Origin: Bacteroidetes bacterium HLUCCA01
GTDB lineage: Bacteria; Bacteroidota; Rhodothermia; Balneolales; HLUCCA01
Direction: 5' to 3'
DNA: 64,000 nucleotides
NCBI GenBank assembly: GCA_001314545.1
Contig: LIHN01000009.1
Location: 124,001 to 188,000 of the forward strand
A program made the translations under genes and the position numbers. The notes beneath the pieces are model-generated. The model searched no databases, was not told the DNA's origin, and worked only from the letters and a program-made list of their open reading frames with translations. Positions 9,637 through 49,783 of this stretch are shown in pieces. Numbering within the stretch: position 1 is the stretch's first letter; each line of letters starts with the position of its first letter.

Positions 9637-10584
9637 ATGAGCGATTTCAAAGGAAAAACATTTGATGTAGTTATTGTAGGAAGCGGTCCTGCCGGACTCA
9701 CCGCAGCGCTGTACGCTGCCCGCGCTGATCTGGCCCCCATCGTATTTGAAGGTCCGGAACCCGGTGGCCAGCTGACCACCACCACCGATGTTGAAAACTT
9801 CCCGGGATACCCCGAGGGTGTTATGGGTCCGAAAATGATGCAGGACTTCCGCGAGCAGGCAACCCGCTTCGGAGCCGACTGCCGATGGGGTGTGGTAACC
9901 GATATCGATATGAGCCAACGTCCATTCCGACTGGTGGTTGACGAGGAAAATGAACTCTTTGCGAAGTCCGTCATTATTGCCACCGGTGCATCGGCCAAAT
10001 GGCTCGGATTACCCAATGAGCAGCGCCTGCGAGGCAAAGGGGTAACCGCCTGTGCCACCTGCGACGGAGCCTTCTTCCGCAATCAGCATGTTATTGTAAT
10101 CGGTGGCGGTGACACGGCCATGGAGGAAGCAACCTTCCTCACCAAATTTGCCAGCAAAGTGACTGTAGTGCACCGTCGTGATGAGTTTCGTGCCTCCAAA
10201 GTCATGCAGCAACGCCTGTTCGACAACCCCAAAGTACAGGTGAAATGGAACAGCACCGTGGATGACGTTCTTGGTGAAGATGTGGTACAAGGGGTACGAC
10301 TCAAAAACGTTCTGACCAACGAAACCGAAGTTCTTGAGGATGTTACCGGTGTTTTTCTGGCGATTGGCCACAAACCAAACACTGATTTATTCAAGGGCGT
10401 GGTGGATATGGATGAAACCGGATACATCGTTACCAAAGACAAGTCCAGCTTCACCAATGTGGAAGGTGTTTTTGCCTGCGGTGACGCTCAGGATCACACC
10501 TACCGTCAGGCTATAACCGCTGCCGGCAGCGGATGTATGGCCGCAATTGATGCGGAGCGCTGGCTGGAGTCGCAGCACGATTAA
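9637..10584 (+). CDS. trxB: Thioredoxin-disulfide reductase
   Basis: This 315-residue flavoprotein transfers electrons from NADPH via FAD to thioredoxin. Seen in order: FAD-binding GSGPAGLTAA near residues 16-25, PGGQLTTTTDVENFPGYP, the redox-active CATC at residues 139-142, the NADPH-binding VIGGGDTAMEEA, and the C-terminal FAD motif GVFACGDAQDHTYRQA. Full length with no anomalies. It is transcribed alone and faces the histidine kinase gene, with a strong hairpin between the two stops. Confidence 0.97.
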   Translation: MSDFKGKTFDVVIVGSGPAGLTAALYAARADLAPIVFEGPEPGGQLTTTTDVENFPGYPEGVMGPKMMQDFREQATRFGADCRWGVVTDIDMSQRPFRLVVDEENELFAKSVIIATGASAKWLGLPNEQRLRGKGVTACATCDGAFFRNQHVIVIGGGDTAMEEATFLTKFASKVTVVHRRDEFRASKVMQQRLFDNPKVQVKWNSTVDDVLGEDVVQGVRLKNVLTNETEVLEDVTGVFLAIGHKPNTDLFKGVVDMDETGYIVTKDKSSFTNVEGVFACGDAQDHTYRQAITAAGSGCMAAIDAERWLESQHD

Positions 10585-41231: not shown

Positions 41232-44200
41232 ATGGCACCATCCTCCCCGGATATGGAAAACCCACCACCTGAGCGATCCGGTAAGGTCGATGTGGATATA
41301 ACCAGGGGAAGGGCCACGGTATTGGAAACAGATCATGGCAGGAAAGCGGATTTGGCTGCAAACCGGGGAACTTCCAAAGACGCGAAAGCAGATCATGTCG
41401 GGAAGGTCGATGTGGGCAGAAACCAATCGCATCCCAACGCCACCCCAACCGCACAATCCGCGAATAACACCCAACAGCCCGGATCTCAAATCGCCCTCGC
41501 CGCCCCGCCCTCCGGACTCTACGAGCAGCTCATCACCGACCTCCTCGCCCAGCGCCTGGAAACCCTCCCCACCGGCACCTACCACATCCAGACCCACCCC
41601 GTAGAACCCCTCGAAGCCGCGCGCTACCTCACCCAGCACGTCTCCGCCATCCTCCACTACGCCCTCAGCGCCATCCCCGCCAGCCAGCGACCCCTTGGAC
41701 AAATCGACCTGGCCAACAAGATCATCCGACTCCTCGCCCGGGCCATCAACGACAGCGACCTCCACGGCGACCTCATCCACACCGAAGGCCGCCTCCTCGA
41801 AGCCGTCCTCAACCGGCTCCACCACCCCCACGCCGACCTGAAAGCCCGCATCCGCGAGATCATGCCCCACACCCGGCTCTCCCAAAGCGAGCTGTTCACC
41901 GGAAACCGCGCCGGCGTCTCCCTCGAAAGCGAAATCAACAAAGAAATCGCCTCCTCCGACGAAATCTGCTGGCTCGTCTCCTTCATCAAATTCTCCGGCA
42001 TCCGCACCCTGATGCCGGCCCTGCGCGAATTCACCCGTCGCGGCAACCTGCGCATCATCACCACCTCCTACATGGGCGCCACCGACGCCAAAGCCGTCAA
42101 CGTACTCGCCCGCCTGCCCAACACCCAAATCAAGGTCTCCTACAACCCCGAACACGAACGCCTCCACGCCAAAGCCTACCTGTTCCTGCGCAACAGCGGC
42201 TTCCACACCGGCTACATTGGCTCGTCCAACCTCTCGCGCTCGGCCCTGACCAACGGCCTGGAGTGGAACATGAAAATCACCACGCGGGAGGTGGCCCACA
42301 TCATCGACAAATTCCGCAAAACCTTCGACACCTACTGGGCCGACAACGAATTCGACCTGTACGATGTGGACCGGGATGGAGATCGACTCCAACGCGCCCT
42401 GACCCAGCAACGCATGCGGTCCACGGGGAACACCAGCGACCAGGCCGGACCCGGCGGCGCCATCACCACCTTTTTCGAAGTCAGACCCTACGCGTTTCAA
42501 CAAGAAATCCTGGATAAACTCCACGCCGAACGCACCCTGCACCATCGCACACGTAATCTGGTGGTCGCCGCCACGGGCACGGGCAAAACCGTCATCTCCG
42601 CCTTCGATTTCAAGCGGTATCGCGCGGCCCACCCCGAAGCCCGCCTCCTGTTTATCGCCCACCGCAAGGAAATTCTGCACCAGTCGCGCACCACGTTTCG
42701 GCATATCCTGCGCGATGGAAACTTCGGCGAAATCTGGGTTGACGGCGCCACGCCCGACCGCTTTGAATGCGTCTTCGCCTCGGTGCAGACCTTCAATTCC
42801 CAGCAGGACCGCCTCGCCCACCTGCCGCCCGACTACTTCGATATGGTGATCATCGATGAAGTGCATCACCTCACCGCCGCCAGCTACCGCACCGTACTCG
42901 AGCGATTTCAACCGGATGTGCTGCTCGGACTCACCGCCACGCCCGAACGCATGGACGGGGGCGACATCACCGAGGACTTCGACGGTCGTATTGCTGCGGA
43001 AATCCGCCTTCCGGAAGCCCTCAACCGCAAACTGCTTTGTCCGTTTCAGTACTTTGGCGTCACCGATGCGGTCGATTTACGCGATGTAGCCTGGAAAAAC
43101 GGTAAATACGACGCGGCGGCCCTCACCCGGATCTACACCGCGGGGGATATGGTCGCCCGACAGCGGGTGCAGTCCATCATGGATGCCCTCGAACAGTATT
43201 GCACCGATCCTGCCGGGGTGCGCGCCCTTGGGTTCTGCGTCACCAAAGACCATGCCCGGTACATGAGCGATGCGTTTCAGCAGGCCGGATTCAAGGCCGA
43301 TGTGCTGGTTGGCGAAACTCCGCGTGAGCAGCGGGAGGCGATGCGGGCCCGACTTCAGCGCGGGGAGCTGAACTACCTGTTTGTGGTCGATGTGTTCAAC
43401 GAGGGGGTCGACATTCCGGAAATTGATACCGTCTTGTTTTTACGTCCGACCGAGAGTTTGACCGTGTTTTTGCAGCAGCTGGGTCGGGGATTGCGACTGG
43501 CCGATGGTAAAGATGTGCTCACCGTGCTCGATTTTGTAGGCAATGCCCGGGAAGAATACGACTTCGAACACAAATTCCGGGCCTTGATTGGTCGCACCCG
43601 GCAGTCGGTGCTCAAAGAACTGGAACACGACTTCCCCCACCTGCCCCTGGGCTGCTCCATCGTGCTGGAGCGACAAGCCCGGGAGTACATCCTGGAGAAT
43701 ATACGTCGGGCTACGTCGCTCAAACGACCGAAAATGGTGCAGAAGATTCAAGGGTTCCGGCATCAAAGCGACCGTCCTCTCACCTGGCGTAACTTCATGG
43801 AATTTCATCACATGGAAGCGCCCATGCTGTACAAATTCAAGATCGGCGGGAAGTTGATCGGATGGAATCGACTTTGTGTGGAAGCGGGCGTGCTCGAAGA
43901 CTTCCGGGAGCCGCTGGAGATGGAGCTATCGCGGTACATCGGTACGCGACTGCTCACCACCCAATCGGAAAGTTACTTCCGTTTTGTGCTCGCGCTGTTG
44001 GATGCAGGGTGTGATGTGGAGGTTTTGATGAAGGATACGTATTCACAAAATGTGAATACCGATGTCAACAACAGTCGGTCCAAAAGTTCACATAATGTGA
44101 ACATGAATAATGAGGGCAAGCAACGAGAATATTCACAAAATGTGAACATCTATGTTGCCAAAAGCCACCCCAATAGTTCACAAAATGTGAATACTGATAC

Positions 44201-45017
44201 CAACAACAGCCGGTCCGGTAGTTCACATAATGTGAATATCGATATCAACAACAGCCACCTCAATAGTTCACATAATGTGAATACCGGCACCGTCAGCAGT
44301 CGGCCCAAAAGTTCACAAATTGTGAACTTCTTCAGCCCTGCCGAGACCGAAAAGTTCGCACTCATGCTCCACTACGACATCTGGCAAACGGATGGTCCGG
44401 CCAGCGGAGCAGCGAATCTACGTGAGAGTCTGCTTCGACTCAACAACAATCCCGTGATGCTAAATGAAATTCGGGAAGTCACCAACTACCTGCTCGACCA
44501 GCTTGACGTCATCGAAAAACCGACCGAAAGCATTACCGATTTCCCCCTTCGTATCCACGGTCGATACAACCGCGACCAGATTTTAGTCGCCATGCAGATG
44601 CACACCTGGGAGAAGTCCTCCAGCAATCGCGAAGGCGTTGCGGAAAACCGGGATCTCGGCGCCGAAGCCCTCTTCGTCACCCTCAACAAAAACGAAGAAG
44701 ACTACTCCTCCAGCACCATGTACGAAGACTACGCCGTCAACGAAAACACCTTCCACTGGCAAAGTCAAAATGCTTCACGGCCCGAACGTGGTCGCGGCCT
44801 CTCCTACATCCAACACAAAGAAAACGGCAAACAGATGCTCCTGTTCGTCCGTGAACACAACAACGACCCGTACGGAAACACCCTGAGCTACGTCTTCTTA
44901 GGTCCCTGCGACTACATCGACCATTCCGGCGCCAAACCCATGAACATCAAATGGAACCTCCACGAACCCATTCCCGGCCACCTCCTCAACGAAAGCCGAA
45001 AACTCGCGGCGGGGTGA
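41232..45017 (+). CDS. PLD-nuclease/SF2-helicase/DUF3427 protein with two internal repeat arrays
   Basis: About 1,261 residues from ATG 41232; a TTG at 41178 is possible. In order: a 60-bp-repeat leader (residues about 14-73), the conserved start [19 protein letters not shown] (about residue 95), a phospholipase-D nuclease domain ([26 protein letters not shown]), an SF2 helicase with Walker [14 protein letters not shown] (about 442) and VIIDEVHHL (about 539), helicase motif [13 protein letters not shown], then the DUF3427 region. The latter is interrupted by seven 15-residue repeats (about 937-1032). The ending [20 protein letters not shown] is typical of DUF3427 helicases found in defence islands. 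The 5-prime half is far more C-rich than its neighbours. A nuclease-helicase attack on foreign DNA is likely but inferred. Confidence 0.85.
41271..41450 (+). repeat. Three in-frame 60-bp repeats
   Basis: Units start at 41271, 41331 and 41391, with the best match in the first 24 bases (GAGCGATCCGGTAAGGTCGA, GATCATGGCAGGAAAGCGGA, GATCATGTCGGGAAGGTCGA). They encode 20-residue repeats beginning [18 protein letters not shown] and DHVGKVDVG. Confidence 0.75.
44042..44326 (+). repeat. Seven 15-bp palindromes at exact 45-bp spacing
   Basis: Palindromes TTCACAAAATGTGAA or TTCACATAATGTGAA (the last is TTCACAAATTGTGAA) start at 44042, 44087, 44132, 44177, 44222, 44267 and 44312, each exactly 45 bases apart. 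The 30-base intervals are related but diverged (for example ACCGATGTCAACAACAGTCG against ACTGATACCAACAACAGCCG; interval 2 is unrelated). The array is in frame in the helicase gene and encodes 15-residue repeats with SSHNVN or YSQNVN. Confidence 0.95.
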
Positions 45018-45021
45018 TTAT

Positions 45022-45414
45022 ATGAGCAAATTATACCGTATAGTACAGTCGAAAGGAGCAAAAGACAGAGAGAATCCTTTATCTCAAAAAGCATTAGAAC
45101 AATTAAGAATCTACTACAAACAATACAAACCTACGACCTACTTATTTGAAGGCCAGTTTGGCGGGATGTATTCTGCAACAAGTATTCAGACCCTATTTCG
45201 GAAAGCCTTGAAAGAATGCAAGATCAACAAAAAAGCAACGGTTCACACCTTGCGACACAGTTATGCAACACATTTATTGGAAAGTGGCACCGATTTACGC
45301 ATTATTCAAGAGCTGTTGGGGCATAAAAGCAGCAAGACGACAGAGATATACACTCATGTGAGTCAGCAAACCAAACAAAAAATACCAAACCCACTTGATC
45401 AACTTGGTCTGTAA
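45022..45414 (+). pseudogene. Truncated tyrosine recombinase (C-terminal catalytic part)
   Basis: 130 residues forming the second half of an XerC/D-like tyrosine recombinase: [13 protein letters not shown] (beta-hairpin with Lys), [20 protein letters not shown] (His-x-x-Arg), [18 protein letters not shown] (His and the nucleophile Tyr). The core-binding N-terminal domain and the first catalytic Arg are missing, cut off 5 bases after the helicase stop, so it cannot be active alone. It lacks the extra patch that marks integron IntI proteins. Its 3-prime end points at the attI-like site and cassette that follow. Confidence 0.85.
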
Positions 45415-45422
45415 TAATGCAC

Positions 45423-45494
45423 AATAAACATGCGTATATACATCTATATAGGTCATATATACGCATATTTATTGCGTATATAAACAAGTTGGGC
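45423..45494. other. Recombination-site-like hairpin and GTTGGGC boundary
   Basis: An 18-base inverted repeat, AATAAACATGCGTATATA (45423-45440) with TATATACGCATATTTATT (45456-45473), pairs at 17 of 18 positions. It is followed by a third GCGTATATA copy (45474-45482) and then ACAAGTTGGGC ending at 45494. GTTGGGC fits the integron core GTTRRRY. Three copies of a GCGTATATA motif next to a recombination core, just downstream of an integrase gene, resemble an attI-type site. Confidence 0.55.
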
Positions 45495-45507
45495 ATAATT
45501 TGTGAAA

Positions 45508-46539
45508 ATGGAAGAATTAGTAAACAGAATAGTTGAAATAATTGGAGATTATCGATCAGGTAGCGAAGCTGAGATTGACAGGGATCGTGTAATTTCATGG
45601 GTCGAACAGTTTGACGAATCAGATAGAGAGTTTTTATTGACAGAACTGATCCACATATTACCAAAATCATATATATCAGAAAAAGAAGCGAGAGAGACTT
45701 TGGGTGGCTCATTCGAATATTTAAGAAAGAAATACAATCAAGAATCAATTGATGAATTTTTACAAAACTCCAAGTTTTTGAGTTGTCAAGGGCTACATAA
45801 AAGTCAAACAAAACTTCTTGAGTTTTTACGAGAGTATGCCGAAGAAGAACTGAATTTTAATTTCGATGATTGTGGTATTGAAAGTGAAAAATATTGGGTT
45901 TATCTTGACGATGTTCTAGCTTCAGGTGGTACTTTCAGAAGAGAAATCATTGAAAAAATTAATGATTATGGTACGGAACGGTTCGTGGAAGACGACATTA
46001 AAATTATTTCAATCTTCTTTTTTCTTCATAGTTGGGGATGTGCCAATTCAAAGTATGTCATTCTAAAAGATTTAGGGAAGAATATTGCTTCTAGGATTGA
46101 TTTCCATAGAGTTTTTGAAATTGAAAATGACCCCCGAATTAACTATTTCAATCCTAATCCGGCTTTTAACCACGCATTCCCTATGGATAGTTCTGAATCT
46201 TGGAGGGAATTTTTAGAAACCCTTGATGCTGACAGGCAAGCACAATATGCATTTAGGCCTCCAGAAAAACCAAATAAAGAAAGCTTTTATTCTTCCGCTG
46301 AAAATCGGAATAGATATGAACAAATTGTTTTAAACAAAGGAATTGAAATTATTGAAAGAATTCATAATGTAGGCGCTCCAGTTCGACCTTTGGGTTTCAC
46401 TAGTCCTAGTTACAAAACTTTAGGAGCAGGTAGTCATGCATTCACATGGAGAAATATTTCTAACACTTGTCCACTAGTTTATTGGTGGGAGAGCAATGGT
46501 TGGTTTCCTTTATTTTCAGTAGCAAACCGTGGAATCTAA
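45508..46539 (+). CDS. Phosphoribosyltransferase-like (PRTase-CE type) protein
   Basis: 343 residues from ATG 45508; a GTG two codons earlier is also possible. The signature is KYWVYLDDVLASGGTF (about residues 129-144), a PRPP-binding loop of type I phosphoribosyltransferases: hydrophobic strand, two Asp, then SGGT. It is preceded by a helical N-terminal part and followed by a region with no family I know (HRVFEIENDPRINYFNPNPA; TCPLVYWWESNGW). It resembles the PRTase-CE group proposed from conflict-system genomics. The coding DNA is strongly AT-rich. It overlaps the NADAR gene by 11 bases, so the two act together. Confidence 0.75.
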   Translation: MEELVNRIVEIIGDYRSGSEAEIDRDRVISWVEQFDESDREFLLTELIHILPKSYISEKEARETLGGSFEYLRKKYNQESIDEFLQNSKFLSCQGLHKSQTKLLEFLREYAEEELNFNFDDCGIESEKYWVYLDDVLASGGTFRREIIEKINDYGTERFVEDDIKIISIFFFLHSWGCANSKYVILKDLGKNIASRIDFHRVFEIENDPRINYFNPNPAFNHAFPMDSSESWREFLETLDADRQAQYAFRPPEKPNKESFYSSAENRNRYEQIVLNKGIEIIERIHNVGAPVRPLGFTSPSYKTLGAGSHAFTWRNISNTCPLVYWWESNGWFPLFSVANRGI

Positions 46540-47119
46540 GAATAACACTAGAAAATATCATAAATCAGAATGCATCGCATTTAGAAGTACTAAAGAAGAA
46601 TTCGGTGCTCTTTCTAATATGGCGGGTGGATTTCCTATAAAAATTGAAGAACACTGGATCAAAAATTCAGAAGTGCTTTATCAAGCTTTGAAATACCCAA
46701 ATTATCCTGAGATTCAAAAACATATTTTTCACGTAAAAAGTCCAATTTTCGCAAAAAGAGTTTCCCGGAAATATAGAGAATATGAAAGAAATGATTGGTT
46801 AAGAGTAAGGTTCAAAATCATGAAGTATTGCCTAGAGTTAAAACTTCAAAACAACTTTCAACGATTTTCAAAGGTTTTATTGTCTACTAATGACAAACCT
46901 ATTGTTGAGTACTCCAAGAAAGATAAAGTTTGGGGTGCTGTTGATTCAGGAGAATATTACGAAGGTGTGAACGCATTAGGGAGACTTCTTATGGAGCTTC
47001 GCGAAAAAATAAAAGATTCAGATACCGAGTTTGTAGCTACCCCACCAGACGTGGAAGGTTTACGAATATTGAATATAGATTTAAAAAAAACTATGCCCAA
47101 CAATGGGTATAAAACATAG
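46529..47119 (+). CDS. NADAR-family protein
   Basis: A 196-residue protein from a GTG start that overlaps the previous stop. It carries NADAR (YbiA-like) features: CIAFRSTKEEFGALSNMAGG, then WIKNSEVLYQALKYPNYPEI, then KVWGAVDSGEYYEGVNALGRLLMELR. NADAR enzymes are N-glycosidases; YbiA-type members act on riboflavin intermediates, and others remove ADP-ribose from guanine in DNA and serve as antitoxins to DarT-type toxins. Coupling to a phosphoribosyltransferase-like gene suggests the pair makes and erases, or senses, a ribosyl modification. Function here is inference. Confidence 0.82.
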   Translation: MESKNNTRKYHKSECIAFRSTKEEFGALSNMAGGFPIKIEEHWIKNSEVLYQALKYPNYPEIQKHIFHVKSPIFAKRVSRKYREYERNDWLRVRFKIMKYCLELKLQNNFQRFSKVLLSTNDKPIVEYSKKDKVWGAVDSGEYYEGVNALGRLLMELREKIKDSDTEFVATPPDVEGLRILNIDLKKTMPNNGYKT

Positions 47120-47225
47120 GGCAGACAGTGGTTTCCGCAAGTTTCGGGTTCTTAGCAAGCTTGGTTTTGGGCGGACATTTAAGTGCTTTGAAATGCCCTA
47201 CGTTTCATACCCGAGAACGTTAGCG
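47095..47225. other. attC-like recombination site at the end of the cassette
   Basis: GCCCAAC (47095-47101, matching RYYYAAC) is followed by a 19-base arm (47105-47123) that pairs with 47194-47212 at 17 of 19 positions. After a short unpaired segment comes GTTAGCG (47219-47225), which matches the invariant GTT but only partly RRRY. The 70-base interior has further self-pairing potential. Size, core triplets and palindromic arms are those of an integron attC site. Confidence 0.6.
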
Positions 47226-47245: not shown

Positions 47246-49783
47246 ATGAAAGCCACCGAAACAACTATTTCATCTTTTCTTCAGCAGCCGAATGTGCAGT
47301 TTGTGATTCCGGTGTATCAGAGAAATTACGATTGGACACATTCGGAGTGTAGACAACTTTTCCAGGATATCCTCTCGGTAGCGCAGGAACAGCGAACCTC
47401 GCATTTTATCGGTAGCATCGTGTACATTCATGAGGGACCAATCGTCTTTGGCGATATTCATGAACTGGTGATCATCGACGGTCAACAGCGCCTTACGACC
47501 CTCACGCTCCTTTATGTGGCATTATATCGATTTGCCAAAGAAAACAAGGATGGAGCTACCGCGGAACGCATTTTTAATATGTGCTTGGTGAACCAGTACG
47601 CTCGCAAAGAGGAAGGCAAACGAAAACTTCGGCAGAACGACGTAAATGCAGCGGCCTACCTCGCCGTACTGAACGAATCGGAGCATACCTTCGAGCCCTA
47701 TTCAAATGTGAAGGAGAATTTCCTGTTCTTTCGAAATCTTATCACTGAAACGAACTTCGAGCAGATTGAAAACGGCCTTAATCGCCTAATCTTCGTGTCG
47801 GTTTCCCTCGAACGCGGAAAAGATGATTCCCAGCGTATTTTCGAGAGCCTGAACTCCACCGGGCTCGAATTGTCGCAGTCCGACCTCATCCGAAATTACA
47901 TCCTTATGGACCTCCCTCCGGAGGAACAACGCACCATTTACACCACCATCTGGAAACCGATTGAGCAAAACGCACGGGACCTGGTTAAGCAGCAGTCCCT
48001 CGTTTCCGACTACATCCGCGATTACCTAACCCTCCGAAACAAGAAGATACCGAACAAGAACAAGGTGTATCAGGAATTCAAGACCCTGTATCCAGACAAA
48101 CGGGATCCGGCGTTTATCGAGGAGCTTCGCCATATCAAAGCCTACTCCGATCATTATCGCAAGCTGGTGAATCCGGCCAAAATGGCCAAAACGGAGGACA
48201 TCGACCGTAAAATTCGTCGTGAGCTTCTATACATCCAGCAACTCGAAATCAATGTTGCTTTTCCTTTTCTCCTGCAAGTAATGGAGGATGTGGAGCAGAC
48301 CGACCTGAATAAGCAGGACTTGCTGCAGATTCTTCGATTGATTCAGAGTTATGTGTGGCGGCGTTTTCTGGTCGGTCTGCCAACGAATGCATTGAACAAG
48401 ATTTTCATGACCCTCCACAGTGAAGTGGATACCGAGGATTATGTGGACTCCATCGCGCGGGCATTGCTCAGTAAAAAGGGCAGCGGAAAGTTTCCGAGTG
48501 ATGAGGATGTTAAACTGGCCCTGCGCGACAAAGATGTGTACAACACCCAAGCCAAGAATCGGCGGTACTTATTCGAGCGTCTCGAGAACTATGCCCAGTC
48601 GGAACTGGTGGATGTAACCAGCGAAAGCATCACCATCGAGCATATTTTTCCGCAACATCCCGCTCAGGAATGGTTTAGCGAGCTTTCAGATGAGGAGATT
48701 TTCCTGTTTAGAGAGAAATATTTGAATACGGTCGGGAACCTCACGTTGTCGGGGAATAACGGTGCGCTGGGGAATCGGTCCTTTACCGAGAAAAAGACGA
48801 TGCGGGATGAAGATCGGGAGATGGGGTATGATTATAGTCCACTTTGGTTAAATCGTTACCTCCGTGAAATAAATCACTGGAACATCACGGAGTTTGAAAA
48901 CCGCCTTCAGATTATAACCGATCGTTTTTTGAAGGTTTGGCCGTTTCCGCAGGTCGAAATTCCGGTAGAGTCCGATGGTGAAGAGCTCAATCTTTTTGAT
49001 GCCGAGCCGCCAACCTTCCGGAAGTTGGAGTATTTCATATTTGAGGACACCCGTGTTGAGGAGGTTCACTTTGCGCGGATGTACTTTTATGTGCTGAGCA
49101 AACTGTATGAGAGGAACTCCCAGTTGTTGGTCGCCGGACAGGAAATTTTGAAGATTACACGGAATGCTTCGGATTTTCGTAGTGCGCAGGAAGTCGTCAA
49201 CGGCTGGTATGTGGAGTCGAACATCGACAGCAATACCAAGTACGTGGTGCTTAAGAAATTGCTCACCCTGTATGAAATGGAAGATGAGTTGATGGTTAAG
49301 TATCAGCCTGCGGATGGTGTTGATCGGGGTCGGGGCAGTGGTTCTACCCAGAGGAAGAATTTCTTAAAAGATTACTGGGCGCAGCTCTTTCCATCGTTGG
49401 AGGGTACCACGTTGTTCAAAAACACTACGCCATCCAAGGGAAACTGGGTTTCAGCGGGTGCTGGTATTAGTGGTATATCCTTTACCATGATAGTGTACAA
49501 GGCGCATGTTCGCGTGGAACTATCGATAGCTTCGGCCGACAAAGACACGAATAAGCGCTACTACAAGAAGCTCTTGCAATATAAATCGGAAATCGAGCAT
49601 CTCTTTGGAGCACCCCTTGAGTGGGAAGAGCTTCCCGACAAGAAAATGAGTCGGATTAAATATCAACGCTCCGATCTCAACATGATTTCCGAAACGGATT
49701 GGCCCGGCATCAACGACTTTTTCAACGATGTGATGCCGCGCTTCGAGCAAGCATTTCGGGGGTATGTGGCGCGGGTTAAGTAA
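47246..49783 (+). CDS. DUF262/DUF1524 GmrSD-like nuclease with DUF4268 C-terminus
   Basis: This 845-residue protein has an N-terminal DUF262 (ParB-like NTPase fold) domain, FVIPVYQRNYDWTHSECRQL and the conserved IIDGQQRLTTLTLLY. A long helical region follows. The DUF1524 HNH nuclease domain is ITIEHIFPQHPAQEW then YLNTVGNLTLSGNNGALGN, and residues after about 700 fit DUF4268 (RKNFLKDYWAQLFPSLEG; VRVELSIASADKDTNKRYY). GmrSD is a type IV restriction enzyme against glucosylated hydroxymethylcytosine DNA; this fused single-chain form is probably an anti-phage nuclease. Its ATG is 20 bases after the attC-like site. Confidence 0.9.
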   Translation: MKATETTISSFLQQPNVQFVIPVYQRNYDWTHSECRQLFQDILSVAQEQRTSHFIGSIVYIHEGPIVFGDIHELVIIDGQQRLTTLTLLYVALYRFAKENKDGATAERIFNMCLVNQYARKEEGKRKLRQNDVNAAAYLAVLNESEHTFEPYSNVKENFLFFRNLITETNFEQIENGLNRLIFVSVSLERGKDDSQRIFESLNSTGLELSQSDLIRNYILMDLPPEEQRTIYTTIWKPIEQNARDLVKQQSLVSDYIRDYLTLRNKKIPNKNKVYQEFKTLYPDKRDPAFIEELRHIKAYSDHYRKLVNPAKMAKTEDIDRKIRRELLYIQQLEINVAFPFLLQVMEDVEQTDLNKQDLLQILRLIQSYVWRRFLVGLPTNALNKIFMTLHSEVDTEDYVDSIARALLSKKGSGKFPSDEDVKLALRDKDVYNTQAKNRRYLFERLENYAQSELVDVTSESITIEHIFPQHPAQEWFSELSDEEIFLFREKYLNTVGNLTLSGNNGALGNRSFTEKKTMRDEDREMGYDYSPLWLNRYLREINHWNITEFENRLQIITDRFLKVWPFPQVEIPVESDGEELNLFDAEPPTFRKLEYFIFEDTRVEEVHFARMYFYVLSKLYERNSQLLVAGQEILKITRNASDFRSAQEVVNGWYVESNIDSNTKYVVLKKLLTLYEMEDELMVKYQPADGVDRGRGSGSTQRKNFLKDYWAQLFPSLEGTTLFKNTTPSKGNWVSAGAGISGISFTMIVYKAHVRVELSIASADKDTNKRYYKKLLQYKSEIEHLFGAPLEWEELPDKKMSRIKYQRSDLNMISETDWPGINDFFNDVMPRFEQAFRGYVARVK

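Follow-up and report, generated by a model that had tools for sequence, protein, structure and literature searches.

A decayed single-cassette integron in Bacteroidetes bacterium HLUCCA01 points to a Bacteroidota-wide integron family with XerA-like integrases

Integrons are a classic gene-capture platform, and a 64-kb stretch of DNA from Bacteroidetes bacterium HLUCCA01 (contig LIHN01000009.1; hereafter, the window) raises the question of whether a recombinase relic lying beside an AT-rich gene pair and a palindromic site is what remains of one and, if so, of which kind. Positions 45022 to 47221 hold a truncated integrase gene, an attI site, a single gene cassette, and an attC site. The original prediction had proposed this layout, with all parts in the same orientation, and architecture and junction comparisons bear it out. 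We conclude, with a probability of about 0.92, that what survives here is a decayed integron with one cassette, from a Bacteroidota-wide family in which a XerA-like integrase would join attI to the folded bottom strand of attC at G^TT, and that a DS32 cassette became trapped in it. The family is integron-like in each feature examined, yet it is not an IntI integron.

The relic (45022..45414, plus strand) encodes the C-terminal 130 amino acids of a tyrosine recombinase, covering positions 55 to 171 of the 172 in profile PF00589. The catalytic Lys, HxxR, His, and Tyr motifs are still in place; the N-terminal domain and the first catalytic Arg are missing. The attI site, at about 45412..45490 on the same strand, is a palindromic region with GCGTATATA motifs that ends in TATTGCGTATATAAACAAGTT, and crossover is expected after G45488. 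An inverted repeat of 18 bases had been described here; the repeat is present, but its arms (45417-45440 and 45456-45479) are 24 nt long and 88% complementary. A second integrase remnant, 97 kb upstream on the same contig, is 90% identical to the relic and carries an internal deletion, and the two loci agree up to ...TATTGCGTATATAAACAAGTTG and thereafter run into unrelated genes. Altogether, four attI copies in this genome are conserved to GTT, diverge exactly after it, and have different genes next to them; those on contigs C19 and C7 are each followed by two cassettes that obey the pairing rule set out below. The same holds in nine loci of related genomes, where the attI region is kept up to GTT and diverges beyond. 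No intact integrase of this family was found in the HLUCCA01 genome, its remaining homologues being Xer-like or other recombinases. Because the window's integrase gene lacks its 5' half, this copy should be unable to change unless some other integrase works on it. In a second array of the genome (L012, 6838-11014), reading by eye assigns three genes to the first cassette, including one for a possible nuclease-like protein, and a Crp-like regulator, an NAD(P)-epimerase-like protein, and a membrane protein to the second.

The cassette (45489..47219, plus strand; 1,731 bp) is recognized by GTT at either end, by a start that pairs with the 5' arm of its own attC, and by composition. As had been noted, the unit between the cores is AT rich (35% G+C, against 49.5% for the window) and contains two genes, which overlap, and the core positions proposed earlier are correct (GTTGGGC at 45488-45494, GCCCAAC at 47095-47101, and GTTAGCG at 47219-47225). 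A cassette that began as a circle cut at G^TT has to start with bases complementary to the outer arm of the attC that it carries. The window cassette does so: its 5' end, GTTGGGCATAATTTG (45488..45502, plus strand), which is the R' half of the circular attC, pairs with 47087-47101. Cassette bases 1 to 10, GTTGGGCATA, give as their reverse complement TATGCCCAAC, the outermost 10 nt of the attC, and this 10/10 match is followed by an A/G mismatch and then TTT, the pattern of the family. This pairing, which the original prediction had not mentioned, is the strongest indication that the unit is a cassette. The right core matches the canonical consensus only in part, as had been observed, and this is expected, since the right-hand GTT belongs to whatever comes next and the family conserves GTT-R alone rather than GTTRRRY. 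The GTTAGCG site after the window attC has no partner attC downstream, and GmrSD (47246-49783) was for that reason rejected as a second cassette.

The attC site itself (47085..47221, plus strand) comprises the R'' arm up to AAC at 47099-47101, L'' at 47105-47123, a variable loop, L' at 47194-47212, and GTT at 47219-47221, with 17 of 19 positions paired between the L arms, as claimed. When both strands of the 64 kb were scanned for structure, the site at 47099-47221 scored highest (38.5, compared to 32.5 for the runner-up and 35.5 for the best of ten shuffles). A covariance model built in this analysis, the kind of check that had been suggested, matches the site at 82.1 bits and E=2.6e-18, a value to be read knowing that the site is one of the model's 43 training sequences; the next match in the window stands at 0.46. 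The same model finds nine attCs in the genome, of which four were not used in training, while blastn with the window site finds a single copy in its own genome and comes up empty in four relatives of its family, so that sequence similarity is the wrong tool here. Rfam at gathering thresholds gave no match anywhere in the window. In silico, the site forms a hairpin whose central spacer stays unpaired, and folding of the bottom strand is favored.

Searching species genomes with a full-length integrase homologue yielded 80 loci, mostly from Bacteroidota (Flavobacterium, Chitinophagaceae, Saprospiraceae, and others), with the integrase frame intact in 70. Intact relatives have a full-length integrase, attI, and a cassette array in the same order as the window. 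The palindromic attI, ending in TATAnACnAGTT, typically lies ~100 bp past the integrase stop, and the first cassette pairs with attI in 26 of the 43 loci having at least 1.5 kb downstream; some loci with an intact integrase show few or no detectable attCs downstream. With the covariance model, built from bottom-strand attC sequences and applied to genomes at E<=1e-6, sites of this family appear in at least 183 of 393 sampled Bacteroidota genomes (at least 47%) and in at least 106 of 179 genera. Flavobacterium psychrophilum ATCC 49418 has 64 at E<=0.001. Controls were two IntI-bearing plasmids, three other genomes, and unrelated loci; the plasmids gave no match, and in unrelated control DNA, once likely true sites are set aside, no match scored better than E=0.03.

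The most extensive view of the family comes from plasmid pPP2 of Persicobacter psychrovividus, where close copies of the window attC (85% identical) flank unrelated genes, a distribution that the original prediction had proposed to look for. Its array spans ~100 kb, with about 120 cassettes, 128 candidate sites, an attI, and an intact integrase gene that runs across the record origin; the same layout of integrase, attI, and array recurs on a Chryseobacterium plasmid. Pairing between the start and end of a cassette averages 7.2 of 10 positions over 132 pairs in pPP2, compared to 3.6 for mispaired cassettes. Of 99 consecutive cassettes in related loci, 88 pair at no fewer than 6 of 7 positions, where 2.6 would be expected from mispaired ones. 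Cassettes that occur repeatedly in pPP2 (35 pairs) place the junction with precision, as identity ends at GTT in nearly all of them: on the right side it extends 0 to 2 nt beyond GTT in 32/32 measured, and on the left no more than 5 nt in 31/33. Also present in pPP2 (L003, L004, and L005) are many near-identical, apparently geneless cassettes that start with GTTATCTCTGC or GTTGTTCCC and have longer attCs, of ~180 nt. In the Chryseobacterium array (L047, 14609-19409), a 140-nt palindromic site occurs twice with an IS110 transposase gene in between, and the array has a group II intron as its neighbor. IS110-type elements and group II introns are known to target canonical attCs.

From these arrangements, a mechanism can be proposed. 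In intact members, the gene for the XerA-like tyrosine recombinase lies immediately before the array and reads in the same direction, and its product would join double-stranded attI, next to that gene, with the folded bottom strand of a cassette attC at G^TT. Recombination at that point would allow circular cassettes to be captured at attI and stacked into arrays.

The structure of the sites bears on the strand that would be used. Position 4 of the attC core is A or G in all 200 sites and positions 5 to 7 vary, which departs from the canonical RYYYAAC/GTTRRRY. Among the 43 bottom-strand sequences, compensatory changes occur in 16 of 17 predicted stem pairs, and one G-T stem pair is kept in 40. 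A strand-neutral scan of top-strand stem mismatches counted 421 A.C/C.A and 86 G.T/T.G; with this excess, the mismatches pair as wobbles in the bottom strand only. Outer-stem pair 11, which is C.A in the top strand of 151/200 sites, forms in 84% of sites on the bottom strand and in 2% on the top strand. Pairs 4 to 10 entered site selection, and pairs 11 to 15 are independent of it. The bottom strand is also the one used by canonical integrons (PMC2727003).

A competing explanation is that the sites recombine as double strands in the manner of Xer and dif, the hairpin being incidental or transcriptional. It draws on the resemblance of the recombinase to XerA, on its lack of the insert that recognizes single-stranded hairpins, and on the fact that both strands of attC can fold in silico. 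Against it, the arms covary over about 30 positions, the mismatches show the strand bias that folding of the bottom strand predicts, and partner sites do not share their core past GTT. Double-strand exchange by tyrosine recombinases normally needs a shared core. We therefore regard this explanation as unlikely, though it retains some weight, and favor the folded bottom strand as the probable substrate.

Whether the integrase is simply a decayed canonical IntI can be judged from its intact relatives. Such an ordinary integron would have the same overall anatomy, the relic does align to the C terminus of TIGR02249, and sister genomes within the order do have canonical IntI genes that include the additional domain (L024, L026, L029, and L031). 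However, nine family integrases score 201 to 243 bits on TIGR02249, below the cutoff of 265, compared to 433 for a canonical IntI of the same order, and the cutoff is reached by 0 of 41 family members. The alignment of Vibrio cholerae IntI4 (2a3v) with the family breaks into two pieces, at an insert of ~40 residues with no counterpart in the family, while XerA aligns throughout, with no insert, and the IntI-specific additional domain (I2) is absent from every tested relative. In the tree, IntIs form their own 100/100 clade, which excludes all family members. Nor do the canonical IntI loci of sister genomes that were examined (L162 to L164) have attCs of this type nearby, as is true of the two IntI plasmids. 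That the relic is a decayed canonical IntI is thus very improbable. The lack of the IntI patch, which had prompted the suggestion of an unusual or novel recombination system, is more than decay, since intact relatives lack it too, and the suggestion holds. That the whole arrangement is no more than chance repeats beside a recombinase relic, as one site in one window might be, has a negligible probability given all the comparative evidence, with the model score of the site, precise junctions, and close copies in another genus.

The integrases of the family conserve the RKHRHY catalytic residues, and their best sequence and fold matches are XerA and NF040815 tyrosine recombinases (5hxy and 4a8e). 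XerA acts on dif-like sites, whereas the family integrases sit beside attI and arrays. Most members also differ in having an extra N-terminal domain of ~60 residues, which is predicted to adopt a small alpha/beta fold (mean pLDDT, 85) and has no Pfam match. In the L066 integrase, residues 1-60 (DNA 9779-9958) read as beta-beta-alpha-beta-beta-alpha with conserved Trp residues, a candidate for substrate recognition. Integrases of the L025/L028/L037/L038 type were rejected as members, as they form a separate clade; a locus of this type (L161) has no attI motif, no start-paired array, and a single model match.

Compared to canonical integrons (class 1 and the Vibrio superintegron), the family shares a tyrosine integrase with attI beside its gene, cassettes that all point the same way and each close with an imperfect palindrome, the G^TT junction, R'/R'' pairing, the bottom-strand signature, geneless cassettes, and arrays of more than 100. 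It differs in an integrase that falls outside the IntI clade, lacks the IntI insert, and is codirectional with the array, in a core of GTT-R rather than GTTRRRY, and in an L stem of ~20 pairs in which G.T wobbles are conserved and extrahelical bases are usually missing. Extrahelical L-stem bases are absent from 115/161 sites, and the remainder are split between both arms, which is consistent with the absence of I2. The orientation of the integrase gene is likewise reported to be reversed in integrons of Spirochaetota, but theirs are described as IntIs (PMC9668308).

The additional domain of IntI, which docks extrahelical attC bases through its I2 helix, has been described as defining and necessary (PMC9668308, PMC7790495). 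On the prevailing view of their origin, integrons arose when a Xer-like recombinase gained this helix, and no intermediates are known (PMC7790495). The survey with IntegronFinder 2.0 found almost no integrons in Bacteroidetes, with one complete, in Salinibacter ruber (PMC9024848). In the open-licence literature on Bacteroidota or Flavobacterium integrons that our search covered, we found no description of this family. It seems to us fairly likely that it represents a phylum-wide integron lineage without I2, with a XerA-like recombinase and folded bottom-strand attCs mostly free of extrahelical bases, either of independent origin or a surviving relative of an I2-less ancestor. The N-terminal domain or the G.T wobbles would perhaps choose the strand, and I2 would not be required. 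The family offers a natural system for testing whether single-strand recombination needs I2 and, with arrays reaching ~120 cassettes, brings to light a large stock of unannotated cassettes in Bacteroidota.

The cargo of the window cassette is probably, judging from profile matches, the DS32 anti-phage pair of a PRTase-like and a NADAR protein. DS32_1 (45502..46539, plus strand; 345 aa; GTG start, with an ATG at 45508) scores 308.5 bits on NCBIfam NF053875 (cutoff, 250) and 3.8e-46 on Pfam PRTase-CE. DS32_2 (46529..47119, plus strand; 196 aa), the end of which falls inside attC, scores 243.4 bits on NF053876 (cutoff, 240) and 2.9e-25 on Pfam NADAR. With both proteins over the curated cutoffs, the pair matches the known DS32 system, with the difference that here it rides in an integron cassette, and we infer a defense function in this host. 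DS32 is probably DS-32 of the DS-n systems of DefensePredictor, although the number 32 is absent from the main text of that paper (PMC13092281). The finding of anti-phage genes in integron cassettes is thereby extended to another phylum. Close DS32_1 homologues occur in 3 of 117 genomes of the order, which fits a mobile gene. Those of two related genomes (G034 and G015) were considered as cassettes and rejected, as they are not in cassettes. The flanking genes, for a DUF3427 helicase and GmrSD, likewise look defense related. At 44035-44335 of the window, the helicase frame is broken up, in phase, by about seven TTCACA(A/T)AATGTGAA palindromes with short spacers between them.
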